A stretch of 44,453 bases of DNA from a virus: the IMG/VR virus record IMGVR_UViG_3300035698_002642, positions 1 through 44,453 of that record, one strand, 5' to 3'. Of this stretch, positions 25,685 through 43,791 are shown in pieces. The notes beneath the pieces are model-generated. The model was not told the DNA's origin. It did not search any database and saw only the letters and a list, made by a program, of their open reading frames with translations. The position numbers were made by a program, and so were the translations under genes. Numbering within the stretch: the first letter of the stretch is position 1; every line of letters starts with the position of its first letter.

Positions 25685-25696
25685 TTGACTAGACCG

Positions 25697-25960
25697 CTAC
25701 TCTACATCGATGAAGATGCACTCACCAGGGCATTCCTCAGCCGCTTCGATGACAGCCTCAATGTCACTATCAATGACACGTGCTGTGCCATCAGACATCG
25801 CCGGGTTGTTGATACCATCGAACAGCTTCTCAGTGCCGAAGTTCTTCTCAGACTCCTTCACGTAGAACAAGCCGTTGTCCATGCCGAAGAAGACAGCGGG
25901 AACAATCTCCTCGCAGAGACCGTCGCCAGTACACAAATCCTGATCAATCCAAACCTTCAT
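25697..25960 (-). CDS. Small ferredoxin
   Basis: 87 aa from the second ATG (25960), four bases after AAAGGA; the first ATG is almost on the ribosome-binding site. The layout CTGDGLCEEIVPAVF near the N-terminus and AEECPGECIFI near the C-terminus is that of the short 3Fe-4S/4Fe-4S ferredoxins common in actinobacteria. It would be a soluble electron carrier. A link to the class II reductase two kilobases downstream is possible but not shown. Confidence 0.8.
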   Translation of the reverse strand: MKVWIDQDLCTGDGLCEEIVPAVFFGMDNGLFYVKESEKNFGTEKLFDGINNPAMSDGTARVIDSDIEAVIEAAEECPGECIFIDVE

Positions 25961-25974
25961 CATGTCCTTTCATT

Positions 25975-26051
25975 TGGAGTAGCGAGCGGGATTCGAACCC
26001 GCGAATACTAGTTTTGCAGACCAGTGCCTTGGGCCACTCGGCCACCGCTAC
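25975..26051 (-). tRNA. tRNA-Cys(GCA)
   Basis: 77 nt with encoded CCA. Acceptor GTAGCGG/TCGCTAC, anticodon stem CTGGT/ACTAG with loop CTGCAAA, T arm GCGGG-TTCGAAT-CCCGC. The 5' end overlaps the HNH stop codon by four bases. Confidence 0.93.
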
Positions 26052-26656: not shown

Positions 26657-26700
26657 GCTACCATTGTAGTGGATATCGCGACTTGAGTCTAGAGTTAACT

Positions 26701-26775
26701 TGGAGTTGATAAACGGATTCGAACCGATCCCACAACCTTGGCAAGGTTATATGCTGCCGCTAACACCATATCAAC
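26701..26775 (-). tRNA. tRNA-Gly(GCC)
   Basis: 75 nt with encoded CCA. Acceptor GTTGATA/TATCAAC, anticodon stem TAACC/GGTTG with loop TTGCCAA, T-loop TTCGAAT (one mismatch in the T stem). Discriminator T. Confidence 0.9.
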
Positions 26776-26843
26776 AGGACGGCACGTTTATAGACCCGAT
26801 CCCCTACTGGGGCAATTATTTCACGTACCGAAGGTCTTATTAG

Positions 26844-26915
26844 AGCGCTGACGGAGAATCGAACTCCGTTATCAAGCTTGGAAGGCTTGCACATCGCCAG
26901 CAATGTTTCCAGCAC
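26844..26915 (-). tRNA. tRNA-Gly(TCC)
   Basis: 72 nt, no CCA. Acceptor GTGCTGG/TCAGCGC with two wobble pairs, D arm ACAT/ATGT, anticodon stem CAAGC/GCTTG with loop CTTCCAA, T arm CGGAG-TTCGATT-CTCCG. Discriminator T followed by CTAA. Confidence 0.9.
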
Positions 26916-26921
26916 CTGGCA

Positions 26922-27127
26922 TTACTCTAGGAACGCATACCAATTCCCGCGCTCCGCTGTTCGTAGTGTATGGCAATTAGCACAGACCACATCGCACTTC
27001 GCTACTTCCGCCCACAGCGCCGAACGTGAACCGTGGGGGACGCAAACGTTGAATGTTCGCAATTCCCACACGCATTGTGCTTGACATATCCAATGTCTCG
27101 CAGTGTCTGTGCCTTGTTCTCATCCAC
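26922..27127 (-). pseudogene. Frameshifted HNH-type endonuclease remnant
   Basis: A 41-codon frame starts at GTG 27127 behind GGAGGT (MDENKAQTLRDIGYVKHNAC-GNC...) and stops at 27002. A different frame, open from 27119 to a stop at 26922, ends LWAEVAKCDVVCANCHTLRT..., which is the classic C-terminal half of small phage HNH nucleases. The two parts look like the CxxC start and VCANCH end of one gene broken by a frame change, with the central D-H segment missing or scrambled. Probably a decayed selfish nuclease between tRNA genes. Confidence 0.7.
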
Positions 27128-27189
27128 GATACACCTCCATAATGTTCAAGAATCGTTAATGTTCAGTGTGGCACTGAAGTATTGAAGTA

Positions 27190-27321
27190 TTACTCAGGCG
27201 TCTCAGATGGGTCGTTGATCCGATTCAGGATTTCAAGTTCCGTAGCCTGAGCGTTGAGCAGACGAGTCTGCGCTTTCACATGAGCAATCTGTGCTTGAGT
27301 AATTGCGTCCCCTACTGTCAT
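27190..27321 (-). CDS. Small helical protein, 43 aa
   Basis: ATG five bases after AAGGAGAT, an excellent ribosome-binding site. The product (MTVGDAITQAQIAHVKAQTR...) is predicted as one amphipathic helix with regular Leu/Ile/Ala spacing and an acidic end (SETPE). Small coiled-coil proteins of this kind are often oligomeric, but no function is evident. It lies among tRNA genes, just upstream of the HNH remnant in transcription order. Confidence 0.75.
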   Translation of the reverse strand: MTVGDAITQAQIAHVKAQTRLLNAQATELEILNRINDPSETPE

Positions 27322-27433
27322 ATTACATCTCCTTCGTAACCGTGACATCTATTGCCACAGCCTTACCCTATTCGGGATAGGATCAGAAGTCAAGAATTGC
27401 CAGCGCATTCCCCGTTATGCTACCTCCCCTGAC

Positions 27434-27510
27434 TGGCGGGGAGGGTGGGCCTTGAACCCACGTCTCTGGACTTAGATAGGGGAGTGTGTTGCCAGCTACA
27501 CCAGATAGTC
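27434..27510 (-). tRNA. Degenerate or chimeric tRNA (D and T arms intact, other stems unpaired)
   Basis: 77 nt, exactly tRNA-sized with terminal G-CCA. D arm GTGT-AGCTGGCA-ACAC and T arm GTGGG-TTCAAGG-CCCAC are perfect. But the 5' acceptor strand GACTATC does not pair with the 3' strand CCTCCCC, and no 7-base anticodon loop can be closed. It looks like the 5' half of one tRNA joined to the 3' half of another. No identity assigned. Confidence 0.45.
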
Positions 27511-27565
27511 ATCATATGTTCCTAGTCGGGAGCTACCCAACCTTCGTTCGCTGTACACACGAAAG

Positions 27566-27603
27566 AACTTCTGCACGGTTTCGAACCGACCTACTCCGTT
27601 TAG
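27566..27603 (-). other. tRNA 3'-half-like fragment after tRNA-Glu(TTC)
   Basis: Directly follows tRNA-Glu(TTC). Contains CTAA, then an anticodon-stem-like GGAG, then CGG-TTCGAAA-CCG (T arm) and an acceptor-like tail. No matching 5' half adjoins it. Similar fragments follow the other two tRNA-Glu genes. Confidence 0.5.
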
Positions 27604-27675
27604 TACCCCCTACGGGTTTCGATCCCGTTGCCCAACCTTGAAAGGGTTGTGTGCTAGCCAGTACACTGAGGGGGC
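27604..27675 (-). tRNA. tRNA-Glu(TTC)
   Basis: 72 nt, no CCA. Acceptor GCCCCCT/AGGGGGT, D arm GTGT/GCAC, anticodon stem CAACC/GGTTG with loop CTTTCAA, T arm ACGGG-ATCGAAA-CCCGT. Discriminator A followed by CTAA. Confidence 0.92.
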
Positions 27676-28517
27676 TAGTACCTCTAGAAGTTTTTGCCAT
27701 CATTAAAGGTGGTGGATGGGATCGAGAATCAGCTACCTATTATACCCCAGAAGTCGTTACTCTTCTGGTATGATCACTGATTCCCTGTAACGATTAGTGG
27801 CAGTTTGAGAACCCCCGCTCCTTCCAACCGATGCGCTTCCCCATACCGTGCTATAGCACGTGGCGCATAGACCATCGATTGTAGTGTTCGGCTTTTCCTA
27901 CCCAGGTTCGTTGCACAGTCGGACATCCCGCTCAGCGTCTCACCGCTTGCGGACCTAGACTGTGCCTGTGAGAAACAACCATGAGCGTCAACATTAACGA
28001 CCTTTGCTCTTACCTCCCGGAACGGTCAAGCGGGCGGCTCATGGGTCTGCACTACTTTGATGACAGGGGGAGTGCATGCCGCCCCCGCCCACAGTTAAGT
28101 GGGATGTGACTCCCTGCCAAGTCGCTACTCATGGACCTCCCGACTCATACGCCGGGTGTGCGCTTCGCACTCAAGGGTGATAGAGAGAAGTTCACCGGCA
28201 ACGTTACCTCCAGTGCTTGAGGGTAATTACTCCCCTGCCCCCCATCTCACAGGGCAACCATCCTTTCTCGGTTCGCGCTCTAGCCAGTTGAGCTACCGGA
28301 GACTCTCGTTCCCAGGCGGGAATCGAACCCGCATCTCCCCCTACCTAGGGACAGTCAGTAAATCAGAAGTGCCTAGAGTTACCAGGCCCAGTCCTTGCAG
28401 TCGTCACCACTTCCACCGCGGATGGAGAGTCGCTCGTTGCTACAAGCTTAAGCGTAATACATACTAAGATCTCCGGTCATCTACCGGTGCTCTAATCTCT
28501 TAAGCTACACTTCTTAG
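27676..28517 (-). other. Gene-free stretch with tRNA half-fragments and hairpins
   Basis: No protein gene with a ribosome-binding site and no complete tRNA is seen in these 840 bases. Present are: a CCAGAAG/CTTCTGG hairpin near 27757-27778; GGCACAGTC/GACTGTGC around 27912-27968; a lone T arm GCGGG-TTCGATT-CCCGC at 28316-28332; a 5' tRNA half with a good D arm at 28262-28302; and an Ile(GAT)-like 5' half with D and anticodon arms at 28468-28515. The stretch may be decayed tRNA sequence or part of a structured RNA. Confidence 0.4.
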
Positions 28518-28591
28518 CTCCAATAGAAGGACTTGCACCCTCAACTTCACGGTTAACAGCCGTGCACCCCTGCTTATAGGGTCCTACTGGA
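28518..28591 (-). tRNA. tRNA-Asn(GTT), copy 1, variant T-loop
   Basis: 74 nt, no CCA. Acceptor TCCAGTA/TATTGGA, anticodon stem CACGG/CCGTG with loop CTGTTAA. The T arm is GAGGG-TGCAAGT-CCTTC: position 55 is G instead of the nearly universal T, with 54, 56 and 58 kept. Discriminator G followed by CTAA. Confidence 0.88.
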
Positions 28592-29627
28592 ATGTCTGTC
28601 GGTCTCTCCCGTACTCGTCACGCCTGCTTGTTTCGTGGAGGGCGTCCTCCTAAGACCCGAGCCTTTTAGTCGGGCTGATGCTCAGGCCCAGTCCATCGAT
28701 TAACGCACACAGGTAGTCTTTACTCTCCGGTACCATCGATGATCTTTGTAAAGAAAAGTCCGTCTCTCCGGAGCGTCAAGCCTGCTTAGGGGGGCTTTCC
28801 CTGCAACTGCCCCATGGGATTCATTCCATTTGTCGCCCGGTTCAGGCTGGAACTAGGGGCACGGGGACCCCTAAGAAAGTGAGCATTTTGTAATGGGTAG
28901 GCTTTTTAGTCCCATCAGATTGCGTGAACTTTACCGGCCTGCTAGGGCCTCACACGCTTTAATCACACTTGCCTGCCCTTCGGCTGACTTTTTTCTAGGC
29001 ACTATGCGGTACCTTTATCCGGAAGTCGCTTCTTGGCATCTTCCCTGGCCGGGGAATCATACCAGACCGGGCGGTTATTCCCAGTCCCCTGTTTACATGC
29101 TACCCGGCTCATTGGGTAACCATTCAGGAGTGACTCTACGCTTCTTCCTTAACCACGCTTTACCATTTAGCAGTTTTACATACTGTTGGTTCCCATGACT
29201 AGCGCGTGATTGGCCTTGACACATTACCCTCGCAGGCAATAAGTTGTACCACTCGTCTTTACCACTCGTCTTAGCAGACGTGCTCTAACATCCTCGCAAT
29301 TCGGTGCTAACCGACTCACTCAGCCCCCATCCCCATCTTTTTAACTTGATGCCCGCTAAGACACCGTTCCGGTTCAGTTTGTGGAGTTTTGGACTTGCGC
29401 CCCGAAGCCCCCTGGGAGGAGACCCCGTATCCAGCCTTGCGGCCGTATCATGTACTCCATGACATGAATTACTTTACCACACTCCACAGTCGCCTGTCAA
29501 GTGTTTCTTCAACATTTCTAGATGGTGACGCCGATAGGGATCTCACCTACGTACCCTCCCCCTCTGGGGAGGTGCTTTACAGGATACTGCCGGTACCGGC
29601 ATCCCCTTACAAGCTACAGCATCATAG
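28592..29627 (-). ncRNA. ~1-kb gene-free structured stretch; candidate large non-coding RNA
   Basis: No minus-strand protein gene or tRNA is visible in 1036 bases between two tRNA-Asn genes. Structure is abundant: CCTCCCC/GGGGAGG with a 4-base loop (29555-29572), the palindrome TGCCGGTACCGGCA (29588-29601), a perfect 13-bp tandem repeat (29247-29272), and an imperfect ~28-bp repeat at 28602-28632 and 28760-28790 sharing GTCTCTCC...CGTCA.GCCTGCTT. Large ornate RNAs of the GOLLD and ROOL classes are known from phages and lie beside tRNA genes; whether this is one cannot be decided by eye. Alternatively it is decayed DNA. Confidence 0.4.
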
Positions 29628-29699
29628 CTCCGGAGGTAGGGATCGAACCTACGACAAGCGCATTAACAGTGCGCTGCTCTGCCGCTGAGCTACTCCGGA
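29628..29699 (-). tRNA. tRNA-Asn(GTT), copy 2
   Basis: 72 nt, no CCA. Acceptor TCCGGAG/CTCCGGA, D arm GCTC/GAGC, anticodon stem GCGCA/TGCGC with loop CTGTTAA, T arm GTAGG-TTCGATC-CCTAC. Fully canonical, unlike copy 1, so the two are not recent duplicates. Discriminator G, followed by CTAT. Confidence 0.95.
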
Positions 29700-30028
29700 A
29701 TGTGTCGCCACTGTGTTGCTTATCAAGCTTAACACACACTCGACTCTAAACCTTAACCGTGGCCACGGTCAGATTCAGCCTATCCTGTCTCTCCAGGATG
29801 TCACGACTGTTCGCTAGCTATAGCTCTCCGCGTCGTTCTGGAGATAGGGAGAGCAACTGTACCTTACGATACAGCCCTGAACCACAATGACGTGGCCATG
29901 CTGGCGGGTATCTAATCCGCGGTCTCCACTTCAATGGGCTACTTTGCCCCACGCTGGCGGATGTGCTGCCCTTACACCAGTACGCCTTTTACAGCGCCCG
30001 CCGAGTCGAACGGCTCCTTCCGCTTTAG
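29700..30028 (-). other. Spacer with tRNA half-fragments
   Basis: No gene. A 3'-half-like fragment (29992-30028: CTAA, GCGGA, GCCG-TTCGACT-CGGC) directly follows tRNA-Glu(CTC). It is succeeded by a 5'-half-like piece with D arm GTGT-AAGGGCA-GCAC and TCCGC (about 29958-29987). The GCGGA and TCCGC strands are complementary, but the acceptor strands do not pair. The rest (29700-29950) shows no feature. Confidence 0.45.
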
Positions 30029-30103
30029 TACTCCCAACGGGATTCGAACCCGTAACCTTTGCCTTGAGAGGGCAACGTCCACAACCAATTAGACCGTAGG
30101 AGC
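30029..30103 (-). tRNA. tRNA-Glu(CTC), copy 1
   Basis: 75 nt, no CCA. Acceptor GCTCCTA/TGGGAGT, anticodon stem TTGCC/GGCAA with loop CTCTCAA, T arm ACGGG-TTCGAAT-CCCGT. Discriminator A followed by CTAA. Confidence 0.93.
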
Positions 30104-30232
30104 TTATTCAATACGAGCAGACGTGTTTTCCAATTACACCACCTCCCACCACGTAAGTTAACTTCAGTGGATCGGCTGAGACTCGTACGTTTGTCCCCGC
30201 TAGCCGGATTCGAACCGGTATCTTCTGCTTAG
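30104..30232 (-). other. tRNA half-fragments between two tRNA-Glu genes
   Basis: 30192-30232 is a 3'-half-like piece directly after the second tRNA-Glu (CTAA, GCAGA, CCGG-TTCGAAT-CCGG, acceptor-like TAGCGGGG). 30110-30150 is a 5'-half-like piece with D arm GTGT/ACAC followed by TCTGC. The GCAGA and TCTGC strands are complementary; the acceptor strands are not. No intact tRNA can be folded here. Confidence 0.45.
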
Positions 30233-30303
30233 TACCCTCTTCCGGTAATGATCCGGAACCTCAACTCTGAGAAAGTTGCGTACTGCCATTGTACCAAGAG
30301 GAT
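30233..30303 (-). tRNA. tRNA-Glu(CTC), copy 2, abnormal T-loop
   Basis: 71 nt, no CCA. Acceptor ATCCTCT/AGAGGGT, D arm GTAC/GTAC, anticodon stem CAACT/AGTTG with loop TTCTCAG. The T arm is TCCGG-ATCATTA-CCGGA: the stem is perfect, but the loop has A54 and T58 instead of T54/A58. Discriminator A followed by CTAA. Confidence 0.8.
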
Positions 30304-30706
30304 TTGCGACCGTGGTGGCCCTTTCGGAGCCATCCCACGACCGTCCGCCGTCCTTGAGCGCCGCATCTTCGCTACGCTCAAGGACAACGATTAACGTCAC
30401 TGAGAGGCCACTAACCGTACCTAAACGGGGACATCAGCGACAGAAGCCCGCAGCAGCCCTAATTAGGAGCCGCCACGTTGCGATCGATTCGTCTTTCTGT
30501 TTCCAGGAAAGCCACATGACCGACCCTTTACGAGTCGAAGGGGGTGCTTATTGTCCCCAGTTCCTCAATCACTAACTTACGGCCCACTGTCCTTGCTACT
30601 GCAAAGGATCACCCTCACGTGTAGGGGCCTCGCAATCGATGAGTCGTACCCATCGATCACTAGATTTCATATTTGTCGTCTTCAGTTTTCAAGTATCCGA
30701 GACACA
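30304..30706 (-). ncRNA. Candidate structured non-coding RNA upstream of tRNA-Glu
   Basis: About 400 bases without a protein gene, preceded by a good promoter. Stems seen: ATCGATG/CATCGAT (30635-30657); a branched element closed by GGCCC/GGGCC (30581-30629) containing TCCTTTGC/GCAAGGA; a 7-bp GGGGACA/TGTCCCC pair closing 30427-30558; and an 11-bp hairpin GTCCTTGAGCG/CGCTCAAGGAC (30350-30385). The density of long perfect stems argues for an RNA function. No known family is recognised. Confidence 0.5.
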
Positions 30707-30735
30707 TTCTTACCACACGGCTGACTATGCGTCAA
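30707..30735 (-). promoter_or_regulatory. Promoter before the structured RNA/tRNA-Glu segment
   Basis: TTGACG at 30735-30730 and TAAGAA at 30712-30707 with a 17-base spacer, immediately downstream of tRNA-Gln(TTG). It would restart transcription inside the tRNA block. Confidence 0.55.
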
Positions 30736-30745
30736 GTCTATTTCG

Positions 30746-30816
30746 TGGGGATACTAGGAATCGAACCCAGGTTAGTGGCCCCAAAAACCACCGCATTACC
30801 ATTATGCTACATCCCT
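30746..30816 (-). tRNA. tRNA-Gln(TTG)
   Basis: 71 nt, no CCA. D arm GCAT/ATGC, anticodon stem GTGGT/GCCAC with loop TTTTGGG, T arm CTGGG-TTCGATT-CCTAG. The acceptor AGGGATG/TATCCCC has a terminal A-C mismatch. Discriminator A. Confidence 0.88.
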
Positions 30817-30824
30817 ATGTTTAG

Positions 30825-30896
30825 TTGGCATAGCGAGACTCGAACTCACACCCCAGGATTCAGAGTCCTGTGTCCTACCAGTTGGACTATACGCCA
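30825..30896 (-). tRNA. tRNA-Gln(CTG)
   Basis: 72 nt, no CCA. Acceptor TGGCGTA/TATGCCA, anticodon stem CAGGA/TCCTG with loop CTCTGAA, T arm GTGAG-TTCGAGT-CTCGC. Discriminator A followed by CTAA; eight bases separate it from tRNA-Gln(TTG). Confidence 0.93.
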
Positions 30897-31095
30897 TCAT
30901 TCCGATCGAGTTGCTACCGCACGGGCAGCGTCGGCTCACGCCTGATTACGCTGAGCCTGATTACGAGAAGGCTCAACGCTTTGGCATGTCCCTTGACCGG
31001 ATTCATTCTTCATAGCGGAGCCTCCCTTCGCAGACAATATTGCGTTCCGATATTCTCAGCCGCAATGGCTCGTATCTACTACTGTAGCAGAACCC

Positions 31096-31347
31096 TTAGC
31101 CCGACGCAAGTACTTTCCTGGAGATTTGGATAACCCACGAATTCTTTGTGGTGTATCGCTCAGCGAACTGGTCAGCTTCCTCGTGAGACTCAAAGTTCTT
31201 GGTCTCTATAGGAAACAGCAAACCAGCCACTCCATCAACCAACGTCGAAATTAGGGCACCGTCAGGTACCTGAGACATTGGGGACGGCTGTCCTAGTCCA
31301 GTCTTGATCTTTATGCGCGTGCCGCGCCTGTATGTTAGTTCAATCAT
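31096..31347 (-). CDS. Hypothetical protein, 83 aa
   Basis: ATG eight bases after AAGGA. The product begins MIELTYRRGTRIKIKTGLG and has a charged helical C-terminus (ESHEEADQFAERYTTKNSW). No motif recognised; an SH3-like or small beta-barrel N-terminus is possible. It follows tRNA-Lys(TTT) in transcription order. The 199 bases downstream to tRNA-Gln(CTG) contain no gene, only two copies of CCTGATTACG. Confidence 0.7.
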   Translation of the reverse strand: MIELTYRRGTRIKIKTGLGQPSPMSQVPDGALISTLVDGVAGLLFPIETKNFESHEEADQFAERYTTKNSWVIQISRKVLASG

Positions 31348-31366
31348 TTTCTCTATCCTTGTTTAG

Positions 31367-31438
31367 TGCGCCCCCTGGGATTCGAACCCAGACCGATCCG
31401 GTTAAAAGCCGGACACGCTACCATTACGCCAGAGACGC
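31367..31438 (-). tRNA. tRNA-Lys(TTT)
   Basis: 72 nt, no CCA. Acceptor GCGTCTC/GGGGCGC, anticodon stem TCCGG/CCGGA with loop CTTTTAA, T arm CTGGG-TTCGAAT-CCCAG. Discriminator A followed by CTAA. The 5' end overlaps the last codons of the HNH gene by 15 bases. Confidence 0.95.
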
Positions 31439-31804
31439 TAATTTCTGCTTGTTGCGGTATTCAACACAAACTGCCTTGTTAGTGTCCGAGCAGGAGTTGC
31501 AACGACATCCCTGCCAATATCTGTTTATAGATCCGTGAGGATTGTGCACTCCGTGATGACCCACGTGACAAGCACTGCACAAGAGATAACACTTGTCTAC
31601 CTCAGCATCCCATCGTACTTGGGATAGAGAAGATCCTTTAGCTATCGTAAATAGCTTGGTTTCTGGGTCTCGGTGATGAAAGTGGAGATCATCTTCCGAT
31701 TTGCATTCTTCACATCTACCTCCCAATTTCTCAATCGCTAAAAGTCGTCTTTTGCGATACCGATCACGCATATATTTGCGCATGTATTCATTGTTACTCG
31801 CCAT
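31424..31804 (-). CDS. HNH homing-type endonuclease
   Basis: 126 aa. A basic N-terminus (YMRKYMRDRYRKRRLLAIEKLGG) is followed by CEECKSEDDLHFHHRDPETK (H-H of the HNH core), WDAEVDKCYLLCSACHVGHHG (Cys pair and catalytic His) and a second Cys cluster (GCRCNSCSD). It sits exactly between the two tRNA-Lys genes: its ATG lies within the CTAAATGG trailer of tRNA-Lys(CTT), and its end overlaps tRNA-Lys(TTT). That position is typical of a selfish nuclease that entered a tRNA pair. No Shine-Dalgarno site is visible. Confidence 0.88.
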   Translation of the reverse strand: MASNNEYMRKYMRDRYRKRRLLAIEKLGGRCEECKSEDDLHFHHRDPETKLFTIAKGSSLSQVRWDAEVDKCYLLCSACHVGHHGVHNPHGSINRYWQGCRCNSCSDTNKAVCVEYRNKQKLASLA

Positions 31805-31808
31805 TTAG

Positions 31809-31880
31809 TGGGCCTTGAGAGAATCGAACTCTCGCCTTCGGGGTAAGAACCCGACACGCTACCACTAACGCCAAAGACCC
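31809..31880 (-). tRNA. tRNA-Lys(CTT)
   Basis: 72 nt, no CCA. Acceptor GGGTCTT/AAGGCCC, anticodon stem TCGGG/CCCGA with loop TTCTTAC, T arm GAGAG-TTCGATT-CTCTC. Discriminator A followed by CTAA, whose last A begins the HNH start codon context. Confidence 0.94.
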
Positions 31881-31900
31881 AGATCCGACCACAAGTATAA

Positions 31901-31973
31901 GCTCGTCTGTGGGAATTGAACCCACTCTCCCGGCGTTATATGACCGGCGCTCTATCCAATGAGCTAAGACTCT
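31901..31973 (-). tRNA. tRNA-like gene, possibly Ile(TAT), poorly paired
   Basis: 73 nt. D arm GCTC/GAGC and T arm GTGGG-TTCAATT-CCCAC are perfect. Only the inner four pairs of the acceptor form (AGAGTCT with AGACGAG). The anticodon stem CCGGT/GCCGG closes an 8-base loop CATATAAC, one base too large. It is the first tRNA after the block promoter. May be decayed or need modification; the identity is a guess. Confidence 0.45.
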
Positions 31974-33000: not shown

Positions 33001-34311
33001 TCAGCTAGGCTCAGCGTCGAAGGTGACATCAACGAATGCCTCTGGGCGCTTGACGGCTAGCGCTAGGCGCTGCTCAGCCAAGACCACAACGGCGTTTCGG
33101 ACGAAGAAGTCAGAGTGCTGCTCAGCAACACGGATCGTAGGAGCTTCACGGTCGTAAAGCTGTGCGCCGGTACCAAAGGCACCAACCAGAGCGGTACCCT
33201 CAGGCATTGCTGGAGTATCGATGACAGGTAGTCGCCATACGCGAGCCTGTGCACCCTGCTGAATGTTGACAGCCATCAAGTACTGACCGTTAGAATCCTT
33301 GGTCAATTCAATGTCTTCCCAGTCGTTCGGGTGAACGACGACGCCCGTTGGCTCGTAGAAAGCCAAGAAGGAGAGGGTAAGGGCACGACGGATTGCGTCT
33401 GCCTTATTGTCAGCAACCGGAGTGGTTGCACCAGCGGACCAGGAGTAGGTCTGACGATCAGAGTTAGTCAGGATTCCTGCGAGGTCTTCGCCGGTACCTG
33501 TACCCTGTAGGATCTGGTAATCTTCGTGGAGACGAAGGCCGTACAGAAGCTCGTTGTCAATGATAGACGAAAGCTGTGGCTCGTCGGCTAGCACGTTACG
33601 GTGAGCTGCTTCCCAGTGAGCGATGGTGCGGACCGGAGCCTGCTCGCCAACGAAGGTCATCGTGCTCTGTGGCTTGAGACCGAAGTTTCCGCCCTCACGC
33701 TCAGGAACAACAGAAGCGTTGTTCGTGAAACCAGTCTGCTTGAAGTACTCAATCACAGCAGCGTTAGTCTGGCGTGCTGGGAATAGATCGCGGACGCGCT
33801 GCGTACGCTTTGGAGGCTGAACGAGAGGCTCGCGCTGTACGCCACCAAACTCGCCAGGATCACCAGTCGGCATATCGGAATATACGTCCTTCACGGACAT
33901 ACCAGCAGAAGCAAGATCGAAGGACTTCGTCATCGTGAGGCCATTGGCTCCACCGGCTAGGGACTTGAACTCCTCAGACTTAACGAAAGCCTCACCAATG
34001 GAACCGTAGCGACGCTCAGAAGCGGTGCTAAAGTCGGCGGACTTTGCGGCTAGCTGTGCAGCGACGGACTCGCGTGCGGCCTCTGCTGCTTCAGGATCAA
34101 AGTTAGCAACTTCGTCCATAACGATAAGATCGTCACGAAGGCTCTTGATCTCGCGGATTTCAGCCATGTTCTTCTGGAACTCAGCCATGTGGTCATCGCC
34201 TACAATGAGAGTGTTGTCTTCGAACGGAATAGCGTTAGCAATTTCCTTGTTCTCGTCAACCTTCACCTTGAGTGCGGTATCTAGCTCTACGAGCCGACTC
34301 GTATCAGTCAT
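33001..34311 (-). CDS. Major capsid protein (HK97 fold)
   Basis: 436 aa, ATG behind AAAGGGG. Residues 1-110 are helical and charged (delta-domain/scaffold-like, LVELDTALKVKVDENKEI...). Then follow typical HK97 segments: VQPPKRTQRVRDLFPARQTN, IEYFKQTGFTNNA, LSSIIDNELLYGLRLHEDYQILQGTGTG (quoted in parts), PTGVVVHPNDWEDIEL, LVGAFGTGAQLYDRE and FFVRNAVVVLAEQRLALAVKRPEAFVDV at the end. It is followed by a strong terminator, as expected of a highly expressed gene, and a TATAAA box lies in the 129-base gap upstream. Confidence 0.93.
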   Translation of the reverse strand: MTDTSRLVELDTALKVKVDENKEIANAIPFEDNTLIVGDDHMAEFQKNMAEIREIKSLRDDLIVMDEVANFDPEAAEAARESVAAQLAAKSADFSTASERRYGSIGEAFVKSEEFKSLAGGANGLTMTKSFDLASAGMSVKDVYSDMPTGDPGEFGGVQREPLVQPPKRTQRVRDLFPARQTNAAVIEYFKQTGFTNNASVVPEREGGNFGLKPQSTMTFVGEQAPVRTIAHWEAAHRNVLADEPQLSSIIDNELLYGLRLHEDYQILQGTGTGEDLAGILTNSDRQTYSWSAGATTPVADNKADAIRRALTLSFLAFYEPTGVVVHPNDWEDIELTKDSNGQYLMAVNIQQGAQARVWRLPVIDTPAMPEGTALVGAFGTGAQLYDREAPTIRVAEQHSDFFVRNAVVVLAEQRLALAVKRPEAFVDVTFDAEPS

Positions 34312-34440: not shown

Positions 34441-34977
34441 TTAGGCTTTGTCCTTGGCAGATACAAGTCCGCCGCCCGAAATATTCTCCACGCCACGGTT
34501 CATTGGGCGCAAGCGAGAAAGCTTCTTGGGGCGACGCTTAGCCGCTCTAAGCGCTCTAGTTACGCGGTTCTTGGTGCCACGATGAGCATTCAAATCCTCA
34601 TCAGTTATACATGGCGACCAGAATCCCAAACCTACCTGATGCGCTCCAGAACACCCAACTTCTTCAGCACGCTTCTCGGCGCGGTCACGAGAAGAAAATC
34701 TCTCCTTCGCCCGCACAGACTTAGCATTAGCGTCCAAACTTGGACGTGGGCCAGTCTGAGAACTAAACTCCATGGACGACTTCTTACCGCGTCGGCTCTT
34801 CAGCCACTCACGATACGACGGTGATCCATTCTCAATCAGATAGTTGAGATGCTCTTGAGAGGGACAAGGCCCCCATGCGTCACCTTCACGGTGCGCTCCT
34901 TGGCAGCCTAGGCTCCTCGATAGGCGCTCCGCCAGTTCCCTCGTCGGAACTGTCTGGCCCTGGATCGGATCCTTCAT
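34441..34977 (-). CDS. Basic protein with duplicated GCxGAH...PC motif, 178 aa
   Basis: ATG eight bases after GGAGGTG, starting inside the preceding gene. Two copies of A..LGC(Q/S)GAH..G..(A/F)W(G/S)PC...E(H/D)LN are present, at residues ~16-45 and ~100-135. The Cys pairs suggest small redox or metal knots. The C-terminus is very basic (RALRAAKRRPKKLSRLRP). Such Cys motifs recur in actinophage head-region proteins. It lies just before the capsid gene; a capsid-interior, DNA-binding role is a guess. Confidence 0.75.
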   Translation of the reverse strand: MKDPIQGQTVPTRELAERLSRSLGCQGAHREGDAWGPCPSQEHLNYLIENGSPSYREWLKSRRGKKSSMEFSSQTGPRPSLDANAKSVRAKERFSSRDRAEKRAEEVGCSGAHQVGLGFWSPCITDEDLNAHRGTKNRVTRALRAAKRRPKKLSRLRPMNRGVENISGGGLVSAKDKA

Positions 34978-35280: not shown

Positions 35281-38200
35281 TTAGCGTGACGATACCATAG
35301 CATCGTACACCTCATCTGGGGTGGCGTCAAGTAGCCAATCGTATCTGTCCTGCGCTGCGCGCGTAGCGTTGTTCCATCCGTCAGAGAATAGAGGCTGTGA
35401 TTCTGCCAGTTCTTCAATTTCAGAAATAGCGGAACCGAACGACAGCTTTTTGTCAGAAGCTCGCATAGCTTCCTGAACCAGCTCAATCTGCTCGACCATC
35501 TTATCCTTACCGCCAAGCTTACCCTTCTGGATAGTGTATAGAATATCATTCTGGATGCCGCCCAAGCCGCCCCACCTCTTAAACTGCTCAGGAATTTCCA
35601 AGCCATCGAGACCATGGTAGTTTCCATCTTCTCTGCGGCCTTGTAGTCCCAAACCATTATCAATGGAATAGAAACGCTTAACACCGGGGTTTGCGGGATC
35701 TTCATAGAAGAAGTAGTTACCTGAATGGCGATCAGACTGAGCTTGAACAAAGTCAAGCAAAGTAGCTCTGACAGCATCCCCAGGGTCCATCTCATTAGCA
35801 TCAAATGGAGACTTAAGTATATCCCTCTGATCCTTGTCCACTCCCTCAGCACGCGGAATAACATTCTGCCCTAAGTCTACCACGATCAACGGAGTAGCAT
35901 TGAATTGATGGCCACTATCGACACGCTTAGTGTCCCTCTTGTTCTTAGGACCATCGAAACGAATCTGACCCTGAAGAAGGCCCATACGCTCACCCAAGTG
36001 AGCACCAATGACCTCCGCAAACGCCTCGTTGTATCCGTAAGCGGCACCGTCCTTACCAGTGCTACTGAACTTGACACCAACCATGTTCTTCTCATCGCCA
36101 TTAGTATCAACAAAGCGAGCCATGCCGTTGATGCCGCCCTCGGAACCCATAAGCTTAAATCGTGGAGTGTCGCCACGTGAATTACCGATAATGGCGCGCC
36201 CAAGGAATGTATCCGGAACGCTAGCTAGATCTCCGCCGTCCTTCAAGTAAGTGATAGCATCATCAACCTTTTCTATGCCCGCATTTCCTACTTCAACTCG
36301 TGGGGCGTAGATGAACCCATGCTCGTTACGCTTGCCAAGAAGATCGCCCTTGTAACGACTATCTGGACTCACAGCAACTGGGTGGATAGCGTCGCTATCA
36401 GGCTTAGCCTTCGGCTTCTTGTTGCCACCAAGCGCTCGCCTCACAGCCTCACGGCGACGATTCTTACGATCGTCCTTATCAACAGCAAGCTTCTCAATTT
36501 CTGCTTCCGCCTGGATCTCGCGAGCCAAACGTGCCTGACGCTCACGCTCACGCGTGCCAGACAAGTTCAGATCGGCTGTACGCATAATGCCTTCACGGCG
36601 CGACGGAGCAAGACGCCCAAGAATGTCTTCAAAGTCCGTATCCTCTTCAGGATCCGATCCTGCATGCAACTCAGCCCAGTCGTCACGCTGACGCTCAAAC
36701 TTGCGAAGCTCACGCTTCTTCTTCGGGTTACCCTTCAACTTGCTAATGTAATCGTTGATCTCAGCAAACGTGAAATCCTCGCCAGCTACAGCACCAAGTC
36801 GGTTTGCCCACAACTCATCAAGCTCTTCGAACTCTTCCAACATGGCACGGCGCACACGTTCCTGCTTACCGGCATCCAAATTGGCAGCCTCAGGAACAGG
36901 CACAAGATCTCGTCGGCCATCATCCGCACGAACGTTAGCGGTACGGTCACGGAGACGTGGCTTGTCTCGCGTGTCAGGATCAACAGGGTTGCCGTCACCC
37001 TGCTGGAACGCATCAGCAGCACGGTTGAATACTCGCTGACGACGATTAGGACCTTCAGGCGTTTCGTTTCCGTTCTTCTTCTTGCTAGGAGCAGCAACGC
37101 GGTCGATCAAACGACCCAAAGCATTGTCGATCTGCCCACGTACACGGAGACCTTCACGGTTTCGCGCTGGTACAGCTTCCTGTCGCCCAGCCTCAAGAGT
37201 AGCAGCCTTCTCAATATCGTGGTATAGCTCGCGCGCAAGTTCAATTGGAGCCTCATCGTACAACGGCTCATCAAGCAAATCCGCAAATCCGTTAAGAGAC
37301 TCGGCAAACTCGCGACCATTCAACGCACTCGTCTGTTCCGGAGAAAGACTCACACGCTCCTGACGATCACCTAAGGTAGCGCCAATACGCCCACGCTTGC
37401 CCTTGCCCTTCTTAGCAGCATCGACAGCACCGCCCAACTTACCCATGACCTGCTTCAGATTCTCACGAATCTGACCGACATCGTGACCAGCCTGAGTCAT
37501 CGACTCAACGAACTGTCGAGAATCTCCACCGCCCGTGGATGGCTTGTCACCGGGAACGTTAGGCTTCCCATCAGGGGCAGATGCCGGATCAAGACGAGCC
37601 GCAGGACGGTCAACGCCAGCATCACGGCCAGCCTTGAACAGTCGTTCAATTAGCTTGCCACTGATAGACGCACCACAATTACGTGCGAAACGATCTGTGA
37701 TCTGTCCACCACCGGAAGTACCGGCAGGGCAACGGAATCGCTCAATGTTAGGATCCCACCAGCCTCGCGCACGGCCGATCTTCTCTTCCGTGGAAAGACG
37801 AACTAGATCACTTGTACGCATCTTGACTGCACCAAAGTACGGTGCGTAGAATTCCATAGGATCACTAACAACAGTGACCTGTGACTTGATAGCGAACATG
37901 GACATGGCCTTCTCTTCAGCCGTATCCTCACCCACCGTTGTGTATGGAGTCTGCCCCTCGGGACGACGTGGAGCCTCAGCGGACAAGTAAGTGTTGAACA
38001 CCCAGCGAGGGACGCTGATCTTGCGCTTACCGCGCTGAACAGTGATAAGCTCCCTATCCACAGCCTCTTCGCCTAGATTCTGATCAAGCTTGTAACGATC
38101 ATCGGAGTCCGCAATAAACTTACGAATAGCGGCAGTTGGGTCGTCGTTCTTGCCGATCGAACTTAGAGCCGCTGCCCAAGACCTGCCGATGGAAGAGCGA

Positions 38201-39930
38201 TCTACTGGCTTCAGATCTCCGCCCTCTCGACGGATAGACAACGAGCCAGCCTTAGGGACGTGGAACACGGTGGCCCTGAGACCAGTAACCATAGCCGGAA
38301 CTTCGTCGCGACCGATCTGTGCTCCAGTCTCACGAAGATCATCGCTCACTACAAGAACACCATCGTTCATGTCGTCAAATTCACCAAGCTCGTTCAATAC
38401 TGACAAGCTCACAGCGGGCCTAAGAATGATACCGTCACGTCGCACGAAGCGAGACTCAGTAACGTCCTTGCCGCCGTCGAAAGCATCCACGATGAGGTCA
38501 ACAGAAGACTGACGAGCCTTCGTGTTCACTGCCTTAGGAGCAGCCGGAATCTGTGCTGCACGAACAATGTCGAAAGCACTTCGGTTCTGACGAAGATCAC
38601 CAATAGACCTAACAAGGCTAGCGTCTTCGGCCAGTCGCTTAATTCGCTTCAAAGCAACCTCGGATAAAGAGCCTGGGCCTTCCAATGGGATGTCCAGAAT
38701 CTGGCGACCACAAGTAGAGAAGCTAGAATTAGTGAACGTTCCGCCCTCTTCAAAGCCGGGAGGGCAACGGAACTTGTTCTTAACGGCATCATCGCCGCCG
38801 ATCTTAGGCAAACCAGCACGACGCCCGCGCTTGCCGCCGCCTCCACCGGGAGTCAATGTTTCGAAGATTGTAGAACGAACAGGGTGCCTAATATCGCCCA
38901 AATCACCAGGAGTGACCAAAGAGCCAGCGCTCTGAAGACCGCGACCCACGCGAGTGCGGCTAGTAACAAATCCAACCTTGACAGATTCCTGCTCCGCCAG
39001 CATGGCGCGGTACAGAGAAGCCTTGAAGTCCACCACGTTATTCCTACCACCGATAGGCTGCGTAAGGATACCCCCACGCTCTCGTGAATCTCGCTTAACG
39101 TTTGTCACGTCCATCATCTCCGTCTTCTTGCCTCTGCGTCGGCGCACTCTTCGCTTACCGGCACTAGGCTTCTTGCTTCTACGGTTGCCTTCGTTGGGCC
39201 ACTTGCCAGTCGTTTCGTGGTGGAGCCAAGCACACATGGGTTCCAGGGGGTATAGCTCGGGGTGGTCAGCCAAGATGACCAAGCATCGTCTGAACCCACC
39301 CGGCTTCTTCATAATTGGTCGCCAGTAATCAAGCAGGGCTTCCAGGTTGCCACGACGCGGACCACGGCCTCTAGTGATAGAGGTCAAACGTTCCTGAGGA
39401 ACGGCGTCAATAGGATCCACCTTAGCGGATACTGTGGCTAAACTCACTTCAGTCCAATCTGGTCCTGCGACAACCCAAACGCTGCCAACGTCGAATTCTT
39501 CCATAGCGGCTTCCGGCAACGGAGGCAACTTTGTGAAAGGCTTCTCACTATAGGATAGCGTAGCGTGAGGCGTGAACCCGTTGACATGGTTGATCTTTAC
39601 GCCTGAGAACTCCAAAGCTGCCCTCAGAGACACGTGGGCGTCTTCTAGGCCGGGAATGTTGACCGATGCCCAGAGCACTTTGCTGTTGGGATTATCGAAC
39701 GTTCCGATGCCAGCGAGGCGTCCAGCCATCGTCGGATTGGAGCTTGCCCACCCGCGCACCACAGCCATGACGTGAGGAACATCGTAATCTACGGCGTTGC
39801 CAAGGTAAATAAGCGTGACATGAAGCTCTTCTTCATCCTCAGTGGTCAATGGGTACTCCATAAGAGCACGCTTCACTCGCTTAGGTAGCTTCAGGGCGAT
39901 CATTAGGCCACTGCGTTGCGTCTCGTTCAC
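35281..39930 (-). CDS. Giant multidomain head protein: 2H phosphoesterase ... kinase-like domain
   Basis: 1549 aa, GTG start overlapping the upstream stop (GTGA); ATG 39903 is an alternative. Residues ~1-165 are a 2H phosphoesterase with both H-x-T motifs (LHVTLIYLG, FTPHATLSY), the fold of RNA 2'-5' ligases and cyclic-phosphate phosphodiesterases. Two RCP.G...GG.(F/I)T.......CG motifs lie near residues 383 and 729. Residues ~740-1220 are highly charged and Arg-rich. Residues ~1230-1530 carry a kinase-like core: GVKFSS, QAQSDRHSGNYFF (~1400) and RFYSIDNGLGL, as in HipA/PI3-4-kinase-like phages' proteins. It lies upstream of the capsid gene, where MuF-type internal proteins are common, so it may be packaged and injected. 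Confidence 0.75.
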   Translation of the reverse strand: MNETQRSGLMIALKLPKRVKRALMEYPLTTEDEEELHVTLIYLGNAVDYDVPHVMAVVRGWASSNPTMAGRLAGIGTFDNPNSKVLWASVNIPGLEDAHVSLRAALEFSGVKINHVNGFTPHATLSYSEKPFTKLPPLPEAAMEEFDVGSVWVVAGPDWTEVSLATVSAKVDPIDAVPQERLTSITRGRGPRRGNLEALLDYWRPIMKKPGGFRRCLVILADHPELYPLEPMCAWLHHETTGKWPNEGNRRSKKPSAGKRRVRRRRGKKTEMMDVTNVKRDSRERGGILTQPIGGRNNVVDFKASLYRAMLAEQESVKVGFVTSRTRVGRGLQSAGSLVTPGDLGDIRHPVRSTIFETLTPGGGGGKRGRRAGLPKIGGDDAVKNKFRCPPGFEEGGTFTNSSFSTCGRQILDIPLEGPGSLSEVALKRIKRLAEDASLVRSIGDLRQNRSAFDIVRAAQIPAAPKAVNTKARQSSVDLIVDAFDGGKDVTESRFVRRDGIILRPAVSLSVLNELGEFDDMNDGVLVVSDDLRETGAQIGRDEVPAMVTGLRATVFHVPKAGSLSIRREGGDLKPVDRSSIGRSWAAALSSIGKNDDPTAAIRKFIADSDDRYKLDQNLGEEAVDRELITVQRGKRKISVPRWVFNTYLSAEAPRRPEGQTPYTTVGEDTAEEKAMSMFAIKSQVTVVSDPMEFYAPYFGAVKMRTSDLVRLSTEEKIGRARGWWDPNIERFRCPAGTSGGGQITDRFARNCGASISGKLIERLFKAGRDAGVDRPAARLDPASAPDGKPNVPGDKPSTGGGDSRQFVESMTQAGHDVGQIRENLKQVMGKLGGAVDAAKKGKGKRGRIGATLGDRQERVSLSPEQTSALNGREFAESLNGFADLLDEPLYDEAPIELARELYHDIEKAATLEAGRQEAVPARNREGLRVRGQIDNALGRLIDRVAAPSKKKNGNETPEGPNRRQRVFNRAADAFQQGDGNPVDPDTRDKPRLRDRTANVRADDGRRDLVPVPEAANLDAGKQERVRRAMLEEFEELDELWANRLGAVAGEDFTFAEINDYISKLKGNPKKKRELRKFERQRDDWAELHAGSDPEEDTDFEDILGRLAPSRREGIMRTADLNLSGTRERERQARLAREIQAEAEIEKLAVDKDDRKNRRREAVRRALGGNKKPKAKPDSDAIHPVAVSPDSRYKGDLLGKRNEHGFIYAPRVEVGNAGIEKVDDAITYLKDGGDLASVPDTFLGRAIIGNSRGDTPRFKLMGSEGGINGMARFVDTNGDEKNMVGVKFSSTGKDGAAYGYNEAFAEVIGAHLGERMGLLQGQIRFDGPKNKRDTKRVDSGHQFNATPLIVVDLGQNVIPRAEGVDKDQRDILKSPFDANEMDPGDAVRATLLDFVQAQSDRHSGNYFFYEDPANPGVKRFYSIDNGLGLQGRREDGNYHGLDGLEIPEQFKRWGGLGGIQNDILYTIQKGKLGGKDKMVEQIELVQEAMRASDKKLSFGSAISEIEELAESQPLFSDGWNNATRAAQDRYDWLLDATPDEVYDAMVSSR

Positions 39931-40287: not shown

Positions 40288-43200
40288 CTAGCCTACCTGA
40301 TTTTCTTCAGCAAGTCGCTGTTCAGCGAAACGGGCTGCTTCTTCACGGTTGGCAGCAACTACAATGTCCTTCGGATTACCGGGAAGGAAGAACTCTTCAA
40401 ACTCAGGATCAAAGTAATCATCCGTGAACGCACGAGCCTTACCGGCATCATCATCGTAGTGCTCAAGGGCTGCCGCCAAGATCTGTAATGGGGTAGCCTC
40501 ATCTCCAGCAATGTTCGTGATCTCTATCGTGTCACCGGGCTTAATAAAGCTCAGATCCGGTTCCGGGGGATCTAGAAGCGACGCAAACGCCTCAGACTCA
40601 GCAGCGTTCAAAGCGCGACCGATCTCAGGACCCTCAAGGCCCTGTGCAATAGCCGCCGCTGAAGACATAGCCGGAGGTGCATCAGCGAACTCCACGAATG
40701 ATTCCAATTGCGCCTTAGACATGCCAACAGACTCAGCAAACGCCTCAAGATCATTAGTGTCCAAATCACGATTACGCAAAGCCTTCTTCAAAGCAGGAGC
40801 AGACTCAGCGTCGATGTTAGCGAGACGCTGAAGGAATACAACGTCAGAGATCTCGTCATTCGTGTACTTCATACTCTTAAGTACAGCCTCTACGTCCTTA
40901 GCGTCGTTGCTGTTCAAGATCGAAGCAATCATCACAGACGGATTACTGGAGTTGGCCACGTTGGCGATATCTACCTTCAATTCATCACCAGAATCGGTCC
41001 GGAAGATCTGTGGGAACATCCCCATATCCTCCACCAGCTTCAAGAACGCCTCAGGATCCTTAGCAGACTTCAGCCCAGACAAGAACTCATCGTGGATACG
41101 CTCATTAGAGACAAGAGACAGATCGTTGTCTTCTAGAATCGCCTTCTTGGTTTCCTCATCCAAGTCGAATCCTGTGCGGCCAGAGAACCTCAGCGCACGT
41201 AAGATCCGCAACTTGTCCTCACGGAACCTGTCCGCAGGGTCGCCAACGGCACGAACTACGCCATTATCAATGTCTTCCATGCCGCCTACGTAATCGATGA
41301 CCTCTCGGCTATCGAGATCGTAGTACATGGCGTTGATGGTCAAGTCTCTACGGACCACATCGTCGTCTATAGAGCCAGCAACGCTAGTAGCATCAGCGCC
41401 CTCACCAACGTCGCGGCGGAACGTAGCAATCTCGTATTCGATACCGTCCGTAGTCTTAACCCTTACAACAGGGAAGTCCTCACCGGTTAGCTCAATATTC
41501 AAAGTAGGATCAGACCTCTTCAACATGTCCATGACTTCATCCGACGTAGCATCCGTAGCGAGATCAAAGTCCTTTGGCTCTCTGCCCAATAGGGTGTCGC
41601 GAACAGCGCCACCGACGAGCAGTAGCTTCTTGTCGTTCTCCTTGAATACATCGTGGATAGGAACAAGATCGTCAGGGGTCTTCAAATCTAGTGCTCTACG
41701 CTCGGGAACAGCAGCTACGCCTTCAGGAGTATTCTTCTGCTTATTCTTCTTGAACGGATTGCGACGAACACGACGGTGCTTCACATCGCCGTGGAACCTG
41801 AGACCCTTAGGAGTCCTAGTCAGCATGCCGCCCTTAAGGTCTTCGGTACGTACTTCAGCGATACCAGGGCGCGGCGCATCGGCAGCCGCCACGAAGTCAT
41901 CGTGACGGTGCGATAGCTCTGGAATTGGCTCTCCGGTCTTCCCTGCGCGTGCCATGAAATACAGGTTAGCAAGAACCAGGGGCTTTTGTCCATCCCAAAA
42001 TTCTTGCATCCTCTCATACGACCCAACGCCGTCAAGCTCCAGTCGCTTAGCTTCACGCTCAAGCATGCCAAATGCGGCATCGAAATCGTCGTCCTTCCAA
42101 GCCTGAGACAGATCTCGATAGAAGTTCATGTCCTCAAGGATACGGTTAGCATCCTCTTCAGATTCGGCCAAACCTACATAGCCAACGTGCAAGCCGTCAG
42201 TGTCCGGCTTCAGAATCCCACCACTGCGGGTATCCTCATCAATCGATTCAATGCTGTACACACGATCGTTGGTTAGATCGTTGTACGACAACGGGTTACC
42301 GCGAACAAGAAGTCCGTTAGGCTGACGAATACCGTGCTGCCAATCTTCCATGCCGTACACAGAAGTATCGTCTGGAACAACAACGCCAGGCTTGTAGTAA
42401 GCAACGTCAGTTCCGAGAAGCTCAGATCCTGCCTTCGTAGACTCGCCCGACTGAATACGGTCAAGCATGTTGCTGAAGTCCTTGCGGGAAATACCCGAAA
42501 TGTCATCGATACGACGACGAAGCATTTCTCGCTTCTGACTGAAATCATCCATGCGATAACCGTCTGGGAGCATTACCTGCATTTCGCTATCCAGATCGTC
42601 AACGCCTAAGTTACCGATACGCTCGCGAGCACTCTCTAGGCCATCAAGGATTTCGTCTCTCGTGGCGAAGTTGTTACGCTCCTGGTCAACAAGAACAAAC
42701 GCAAACCCAGCACTGAGCATGCCCTTCCTATCGTCGTGGGTAGCCCACATGAGAAGGTCTCGCGCACCGGCAGGGTCATCCTTAGCAGGGTCAAGAGAGA
42801 ACCCGTGATCGATAGGCACCACGTGAACGCGACCGTTACTGTCCCTAGTCAAGAACATGTTACCAGCATGACGATCACCGTTACCCACAACCCAATCGAA
42901 CAGCATCATAGTAGAGAGATTGTCCACATCGAATGCTTGAGGGGTACCGAACGTGGACTCAGCGTCAAACACAGAGTCAGCGTCCTGATGAGGCTTGAAC
43001 AAGTCACCGTTAACGTAACCGCCCACGTGCGTCTGTAGAGTTAGAAGCTCTTCGTGGTTCTCGCCGTCGTTAGCGATTCGAAATTCGCCCACGGGCAAAC
43101 CGAGAGCGTTTGCTACTAGATGAGACAAGATCTCAGAAGCGGGAGCCTCGTGCGCCTGAACATCGCCCTTGACAAACATCTGCTGCCCGGTTTCCTTGTC

Positions 43201-43791
43201 CGTAATCATCGCAACCTGATTGATACCAGATTCGATCTCGTTACCGGCCTGATCAACAGCGGAATCCACGTCATCTAAACGAATCATCTCAAAACGATCG
43301 TTGCCGGAATCCATAGAAGTGACAATGCCTGCCCACAAGAACTCGTCAGGGACAGCATCCAGCGGCAGGCCGTCGTTCAATCGGTCTGCCCAGTAAGCGT
43401 TAGCATCAGGTCCCCCAGATGGCGTGTCAGGACCCTTCTTGGTCTTGCGGGTAGGACGATACCTAGCCTTCAGATTACGGAGCCTACGCATACTGTCGGG
43501 AAGATCAGCTAGCTTTCGGATAGTATTGCGGGCGACGCCCTCTACGGCGTTAAGCGCACAATTGCTTCCTTGAGCGTCAGTGAACTCGCCAGCCTGATCG
43601 CCAGACGTGGGCGGGCATCTTAGTCGATCGTTAGAATCAACAACTAGCCCGATAGACCGCGCTGCCGCAGCGCCTATATTGTGGGCGTTTCGCCCAATCT
43701 TGGGGCCTAGGTGATTCCCGCCCTTTTCCTTGATAGAATCAAGTGCTACGGCAAGCAACACCACCCTAGCCGATGCTTCGGAGGGCCTCAT
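40288..43791 (-). CDS. Giant head protein: kinase-like domain fused to a CCA-adding tRNA nucleotidyltransferase
   Basis: 1167 aa, ATG with a purine-rich upstream stretch. Residues ~55-85 hold a degenerate RCPP...GEFTD...NC motif. Residues ~160-420 form a kinase-like domain: QQMFVKGD, then VVGNGDRHAGNMFL (~300) and VVPIDHGFSL. Residues ~705-1085 are a complete class II nucleotidyltransferase: VGGAVRDTLLGREPKDFDLAT (catalytic DFD), VVRRDLTINAM, AVGDPADRFREDKLRILRA, SNERIHDEF and the C-terminal GPEIGRALNAAE. These are the signature motifs of bacterial CCA-adding enzymes, which build the tRNA 3' CCA from CTP and ATP. Fusion to a head-region kinase-like protein is very unusual. It could act after injection or during late infection. 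Confidence 0.85.
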   Translation of the reverse strand: MRPSEASARVVLLAVALDSIKEKGGNHLGPKIGRNAHNIGAAAARSIGLVVDSNDRLRCPPTSGDQAGEFTDAQGSNCALNAVEGVARNTIRKLADLPDSMRRLRNLKARYRPTRKTKKGPDTPSGGPDANAYWADRLNDGLPLDAVPDEFLWAGIVTSMDSGNDRFEMIRLDDVDSAVDQAGNEIESGINQVAMITDKETGQQMFVKGDVQAHEAPASEILSHLVANALGLPVGEFRIANDGENHEELLTLQTHVGGYVNGDLFKPHQDADSVFDAESTFGTPQAFDVDNLSTMMLFDWVVGNGDRHAGNMFLTRDSNGRVHVVPIDHGFSLDPAKDDPAGARDLLMWATHDDRKGMLSAGFAFVLVDQERNNFATRDEILDGLESARERIGNLGVDDLDSEMQVMLPDGYRMDDFSQKREMLRRRIDDISGISRKDFSNMLDRIQSGESTKAGSELLGTDVAYYKPGVVVPDDTSVYGMEDWQHGIRQPNGLLVRGNPLSYNDLTNDRVYSIESIDEDTRSGGILKPDTDGLHVGYVGLAESEEDANRILEDMNFYRDLSQAWKDDDFDAAFGMLEREAKRLELDGVGSYERMQEFWDGQKPLVLANLYFMARAGKTGEPIPELSHRHDDFVAAADAPRPGIAEVRTEDLKGGMLTRTPKGLRFHGDVKHRRVRRNPFKKNKQKNTPEGVAAVPERRALDLKTPDDLVPIHDVFKENDKKLLLVGGAVRDTLLGREPKDFDLATDATSDEVMDMLKRSDPTLNIELTGEDFPVVRVKTTDGIEYEIATFRRDVGEGADATSVAGSIDDDVVRRDLTINAMYYDLDSREVIDYVGGMEDIDNGVVRAVGDPADRFREDKLRILRALRFSGRTGFDLDEETKKAILEDNDLSLVSNERIHDEFLSGLKSAKDPEAFLKLVEDMGMFPQIFRTDSGDELKVDIANVANSSNPSVMIASILNSNDAKDVEAVLKSMKYTNDEISDVVFLQRLANIDAESAPALKKALRNRDLDTNDLEAFAESVGMSKAQLESFVEFADAPPAMSSAAAIAQGLEGPEIGRALNAAESEAFASLLDPPEPDLSFIKPGDTIEITNIAGDEATPLQILAAALEHYDDDAGKARAFTDDYFDPEFEEFFLPGNPKDIVVAANREEAARFAEQRLAEENQVG

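Follow-up and report, generated by a model that had tools for sequence, protein, structure and literature searches.

A giant head-locus protein of an actinophage-like virus carries a complete class II tRNA nucleotidyltransferase behind a kinase domain

The 1167-residue protein P0001, encoded in the head locus of an uncultivated, actinophage-like virus, carries a complete class II tRNA nucleotidyltransferase (CCA-adding enzyme) behind a kinase domain. The window analyzed here is the whole 44,453-nucleotide stretch of IMG/VR record IMGVR_UViG_3300035698_002642, and its relevant features are collected in Table 1. A CCA enzyme in a phage is not unusual in itself; the novelty lies in its being joined to a kinase within a polyvalent protein of the head locus, and among open-licence papers we found none on a CCA enzyme fused within a phage head-locus protein and none reporting experiments on the proteins described here. 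We put a probability of about 0.58 on the reading that P0001 is a head-locus polyvalent protein that is packaged, injected, and adds CCA, with its kinase acting on host proteins.

Table 1. Features of the head locus and the tRNA region, with positions in the window.
Feature	Position	Strand	Basis
P0001 fusion protein, 1167 aa: RCPP module, kinase, linker, CCA-adding enzyme, tail	40288..43791	-	ORF and profile searches
RCPPTSGDQAGEFTDAQGSNC module, aa 57-80 of P0001	43552..43623	-	regex scan and sequence
Predicted kinase core, aa 190-345 of P0001 (catalytic Lys208, GDRHAGN 305-311, IDHG 327-330)	42757..43224	-	Pfam, PDB profile, AF2
Class II CCA-adding enzyme, aa 695-1072 of P0001 (head, neck, body, tail)	40576..41709	-	profiles; AF2 and Foldseek
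Catalytic DxD (D741, D743)	41563..41571	-	invariant in 51 aligned sequences
Motif B RRD (aa 814-816)	41344..41352	-	invariant in 51 aligned sequences
Nucleotide-templating EDxxR (E858, D859, R862)	41206..41220	-	invariant or nearly so in 51 aligned sequences
Protein upstream of P0001, C-terminal fragment cut by contig end	43805..44452	-	L048 homologue follows prohead protease
ORF between the two giant proteins, 118 aa	39927..40283	-	no family match above cut-off
Second giant protein, 1549 aa: N-terminal 2H phosphoesterase, two RCPP-like modules, C-terminal kinase	35281..39930	-	
2H phosphoesterase domain, aa 30-135 of second giant protein (HVTL at 37, HATL at 122)	39526..39843	-	PF13563 8.5e-10; motifs HVT/HAT
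Second kinase domain, aa 1226-1549 of second giant protein	35284..36255	-	alignment; homologous to P0001 kinase
178-aa protein, two GCxGAH..PC repeats (DUF3721)	34441..34977	-	resembles N-terminal part of larger head-locus protein of relatives
Major capsid protein, HK97 type	33001..34311	-	PF05065 2.6e-44
tRNA gene cluster (candidate substrates of the CCA enzyme), at least 17 genes; CCA not encoded in 14 of 17	23997..31970	-	
Bacterial class A RNase P RNA	25245..25598	-	Rfam RF00010, 138.5 bits (cut-off 100), model 1-367 of 367

The frame of P0001 begins at an ATG preceded by a ribosome-binding-like GGGGGG stretch and lies on the minus strand; frame 1 of the plus strand over 40288-43791 has many stops. 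There is also a candidate internal start at residue 656, from which a CCA-only product is possible. The two enzyme domains, a kinase and a nucleotidyltransferase, are of disparate activity and share one polypeptide, and for both of them the profile matches are far beyond chance. They were folded separately, since in a whole-protein alignment by MAFFT pieces of kinase sequence were set against the CCA domain.

The nucleotidyltransferase is described consistently by Pfam, PHROGs, and AlphaFold2 with Foldseek, all of which assign residues of approximately 695-1072 to a CCA enzyme. Each of the class II signatures that the earlier note had listed was located: GGAVRDTLLGREPKDFD at residues 727-743, which holds the GGxVRD...DxD pattern of the head domain, followed by RRDLTIN (814-820), EDKLRILRA (858-866), ERIHDE (897-902), and GPEIG (1054-1058); DYVGGMED lies at 833-840. 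The profile search that it had proposed matched the domain to tRNA nucleotidyltransferase families, with E-values of 4.9e-31 for the PolyA_pol head domain (PF01743), 5.5e-5 for the RNA-binding domain, and 4e-58 for the PHROGs tRNA nucleotidyltransferase family phrog_2244. The domain also aligns over its full length, tail motif GPEIG included, with stand-alone phage CCA enzymes. In an alignment of 51 sequences, D741, D743, R814, R815, D816, and R862 never vary and E858 and D859 hardly vary, and P0001 retains all of them. The AlphaFold2 model (pLDDT of at least 90 over 320 residues) keeps the catalytic DxD and the template residues, the loss of which the earlier note had named as the outcome that would speak against an enzyme, and shows the full head-neck-body-tail fold of full-length CCA-adding enzymes, which are its best PDB matches in Foldseek (E 4e-14, TM by target up to 0.73). 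By sequence and by predicted fold the CCA enzyme of P0001 is full-length, and it apparently works.

The kinase-like core behind which the enzyme had been said to lie is likewise matched by profiles, namely PI3_PI4_kinase (PF00454, 3.7e-11) and HipA_2 (PF20613, 2.5e-8) in Pfam. Its motifs are intact, with K208, a glutamate at the aligned alpha-C position, the DRHxxN loop as GDRHAGN, and DxG as IDHG. A profile built from 13 kinase homologues matched actin-fragmin kinase (4.7e-7) and CtkA (4.3e-5) in the PDB, and the AlphaFold2 model, which is of moderate confidence (pTM 0.78, mean pLDDT only 72), found CtkA as its top Foldseek match (8e-6, with a modest TM), followed by PI4K-II-alpha and HipA. 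Residues of approximately 190-345 are predicted on these grounds to be an AFK/CtkA/HipA-like kinase with intact catalytic residues. The fold and catalytic motifs are those of CtkA of Helicobacter pylori, HipA, and the actin-fragmin kinases, whereas the identity to them is 12-18%, a CCA enzyme is fused, and no antitoxin-like partner is seen. PADLOC returned only weak matches of this kinase to PDC-M03A.

Across 80 related contigs, approximately 19 ORFs for giant proteins that precede the capsid gene contain homologues of the kinase, some of them with degraded catalytic loops. Among GenBank phages, a tblastn search with residues 1-666 of P0001 gave a single match (E 0.01), the kinase homologue gp82 of Microbacterium phage Pumpernickel, which lies two genes downstream of the portal gene. 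In four contigs (L009, L013, L017, and L019) the ORF after the first giant protein encodes a kinase homologue with PSRSPLD or a similar sequence in place of the DRHxxN loop, and these are likely pseudokinases, by their sequence, in the same head locus.

The location in the head region, which had been noticed earlier, holds as well. Along the minus strand the order is the C-terminus of the upstream protein, P0001, the 118-aa ORF, the 1549-aa giant protein, two small proteins, and the major capsid protein (MCP), after which come the tRNA cluster and the tail genes; P0001 is thus encoded beside late virion genes. The kinase of the second giant protein has the motifs DRHSGN..IDNG. Neither the C-terminal third of this protein (tblastn) nor its RCPP-bearing stretch matched GenBank phages, and the HExxH protease motif is absent from both giant proteins. 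A B12-dependent ribonucleotide reductase (21478-23508, minus strand) and a dNMP kinase (19540-20169, minus strand) are encoded beside the tRNA and tail genes.

A short module, RCPP..GG.FT..C, which lies near the N-terminus of P0001 and reads RCPP..GEFT..C there, is common by regex scan to P0001, the adjacent second giant protein, and the giant head-locus proteins of relatives; of the two modules in the second giant protein one was found by regex and the other (ERFRCPAGTSGGGQITDRFARNCG) was read by eye. P0001 contains no packaging signal known from experiment, and the module, which is only a correlate, is our candidate for an element that packages or anchors the protein.

By MCP, Gordonia and Brevibacterium phages are the closest relatives in cultivation (45-47% identity); their portal-MCP interval encodes a 2H-type protein annotated as "RNA ligase" and a giant protein, approximately 1000 aa long, in which there is a zincin-like HExxH motif. 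In Hanem the interval encodes a VIP2-like ADP-ribosyltransferase (ART), and across relatives of the same capsid type it holds ART, 2H, HNH-like, zincin (HExxH), NUDIX, and kinase domains. The related contig L048 has approximately the same layout as the window, with a prohead protease, a giant protein with a kinase, the capsid gene, and tRNAs, and lacks the CCA protein, so that the arrangement looks conserved and P0001 like an optional addition to it.

This repertoire and gene position are similar to those of the polyvalent proteins, which Iyer et al. (2017; PMC5512222) describe as large, multidomain proteins with disparate enzymes (2H, kinase, NTase, zincin), encoded beside virion genes, and for which they predict entry into the host together with the DNA. 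The polyvalent proteins treated in the relevant parts of that account differ in having another group of kinase and only a minimal Pol-beta NTase, and a full CCA-adding enzyme goes unmentioned there. The logic is also like that of MuF-effector fusions and T4 Alt, effectors that are packaged in the head and injected, where the enzyme is joined to head proteins or shares their locus (PMC9503650, PMC5512222), whereas in P0001 no MuF domain was matched in Pfam at E-values up to 0.1.

We infer packaging and injection of P0001 from its gene position, from the module that it has in common with its neighbor and with relatives, and by analogy with the published polyvalent class (PMC5512222). P0001 would be made late, together with the capsid proteins, would probably be built into the prohead with the RCPP module as the candidate packaging or anchoring element, and would be delivered with the DNA at infection. 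Once in the cell, we infer, the CCA enzyme would complete or restore the 3' CCA of the phage's own tRNAs and of tRNAs trimmed in the host, while the kinase would phosphorylate host proteins, perhaps translation factors.

The strongest competing explanation is that P0001 is an ordinary tRNA-maturation enzyme, a fusion that is made late and is unpackaged (or for which packaging is irrelevant) and that adds CCA to the phage's CCA-less tRNAs. Plain maturation is favored by the large share of tRNA genes in the window that lack an encoded CCA; three of the 17 encode it, and many of the others read CTA after the discriminator base. The tRNA genes and P0001 lie in one minus-strand block, and since this is the same late block, late expression alone would serve maturation. 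It is also consistent with ordinary maturation that many phages encode CCA enzymes as stand-alone proteins. The earlier note had taken CCA enzymes to be normally stand-alone host proteins, which is wrong because the stand-alone phage enzymes are common: 461 GenBank phage records match the enzyme of P0001 by tblastn, many of them annotated as stand-alone tRNA nucleotidyltransferases. Those of Mycobacterium phage Phabba (gp32), of Caulobacter phages, and of huge phages are of the same family with the same motifs (approximately 30-49% identity), and differ from P0001 in being separate genes without the kinase or the head-locus module.

An RNase P RNA gene in the window, just downstream of a tRNA-Arg, fits plain maturation too. 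No match to it was found by blastn in GenBank phages, none of 50 related records contains one, and no paper on a phage-encoded RNase P RNA was found among those with an open licence. Given at least 17 mostly CCA-less tRNA genes together with the RNase P RNA gene, the likely theme of this phage is tRNA repair or maturation.

Against ordinary maturation, the fusion to a kinase and the module common to the head-locus giants are left unexplained. Moreover, three relatives bear tRNA clusters that are mostly CCA-less (CCA is encoded in 2 of 14 genes in L048, 2 of 7 in L037, and 2 of 9 in L040), yet no CCA gene was found in their records, which are possibly fragments. Because of these three cases the host CCA enzyme normally seems to suffice, and the enzyme of P0001 seems an optional extra. 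We therefore consider ordinary maturation a serious contender, though an unlikely one.

Several further observations concern the tRNA region itself. Two stretches on the minus strand (27405-27480 and 28277-28335), read by eye, hold tRNA-like halves in permuted order, with the T arm and acceptor 3' strand ahead of the D arm and acceptor 5' strand. A match to YrlA that falls below the threshold (Y RNA-like, 32.9 bits) overlaps the second stretch, and the halves are possibly Y RNAs or permuted tRNAs. Between 27700 and 29950 (minus strand) there are gaps of several hundred bases between tRNA genes with no credible ORFs on the coding strand, and near 29920 a segment, GGATTAGATACCC, resembles a conserved stretch of 16S rRNA, possibly by chance. 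An ORF for an HNH endonuclease (26048-26656, minus strand) lies within the cluster.

It is also important to consider whether the fold has been repurposed, either as another nucleotidyltransferase (for poly(A) tailing or a toxin-like tRNA modification) or as a tRNA-binding element. NCBIfam CCA models match P0001 down to 6e-48, with the PcnB and CCA models scoring about equally and the curated cut-offs not reached, and the flexible loop of the domain is without the usual GRRP stretch. A precedent for repurposing comes from L031, the only other CCA-family match among the 50 related records, where a 930-aa head-locus protein (L031:2-2791, cut at its 5' end) has a CCA fold upstream of the capsid gene; this fold has VYQ where DxD should stand and a disrupted EDxxR motif. 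Since this fold looks catalytically dead from its sequence, a CCA fold can persist in this slot without activity. In P0001, by contrast, every catalytic and templating residue is intact, the structural matches are to CCA enzymes along the whole length, and the nearest sequence relatives are 47-49% identical over almost the full domain. The 46 PDB matches at E-values of 0.001 or below appear to be of the tRNA nucleotidyltransferase type, some being titled only "bacterial protein" or "tRNA processing enzyme." The identity of a poly(A) polymerase is disfavored by these structural matches and by the missing poly(A) polymerase signature, which was sought with one regular expression. Specificity for CCA rather than poly(A) is likely, and is not proven because the family models fail to separate CCA from PcnB; repurposing overall seems to us improbable.

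That the gene is an assembly chimera of a CCA gene with a head-locus gene is very hard to credit: it comes from a single metagenomic contig, and the search of viral contigs gave neither a close relative of the whole of P0001 nor a second copy of its exact architecture, but the frame is one and open, its GC is uniform (0.51-0.56), its codon usage is like that of the phage structural genes (correlation 0.89 for the CCA part), and in L031 a divergent CCA fold occupies the same slot.

CCA enzymes within large viral proteins are found more widely. The closest viral CCA domains are generally full-length, and of the 80 that were retrieved approximately 24 belong to ORFs more than 200 residues longer than the domain, several of which are near terminase and portal genes and have HD or other partners, not a kinase of the P0001 type. 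As in P0001, the CCA enzyme of L125, L160, and L165 lies in an ORF of more than 1000 aa close to packaging genes, whereas its partners there are HD, cytidylyltransferase-like, and other domains. Large ORFs with a CCA enzyme, some with HD and cytidylyltransferase-like domains, were seen in L167, L168, and L172 as well, and the genes downstream are terminase and portal where tested (L125 and L165).

Returning to P0001 as a packaged and injected protein, it could plausibly serve against host defense, given that tRNAs lose their CCA tails to cleavage in some infected bacteria, as described for Cas12a3 (PMC12851939); the link from P0001 to Cas12a3-type cleavage is our own. A more speculative extension, to which we give a low probability, is an injected tRNA-repair kit in which the packaged CCA enzyme and kinase, a second packaged 2H/kinase protein, the tRNAs, and the RNase P RNA would together undo immune cleavage of tRNA tails (e.g., by Cas12a3, PMC12851939) or of anticodons from the first minutes of infection. 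If P0001 is indeed borne in the virion, its CCA enzyme would be a very direct counter to the cutting of tRNA tails, ready before any phage gene is expressed, and tRNA repair would join the activities carried by polyvalent proteins. Together with the phage's own RNase P RNA, P0001 would then point to an unusual independence of this virus in tRNA maturation.
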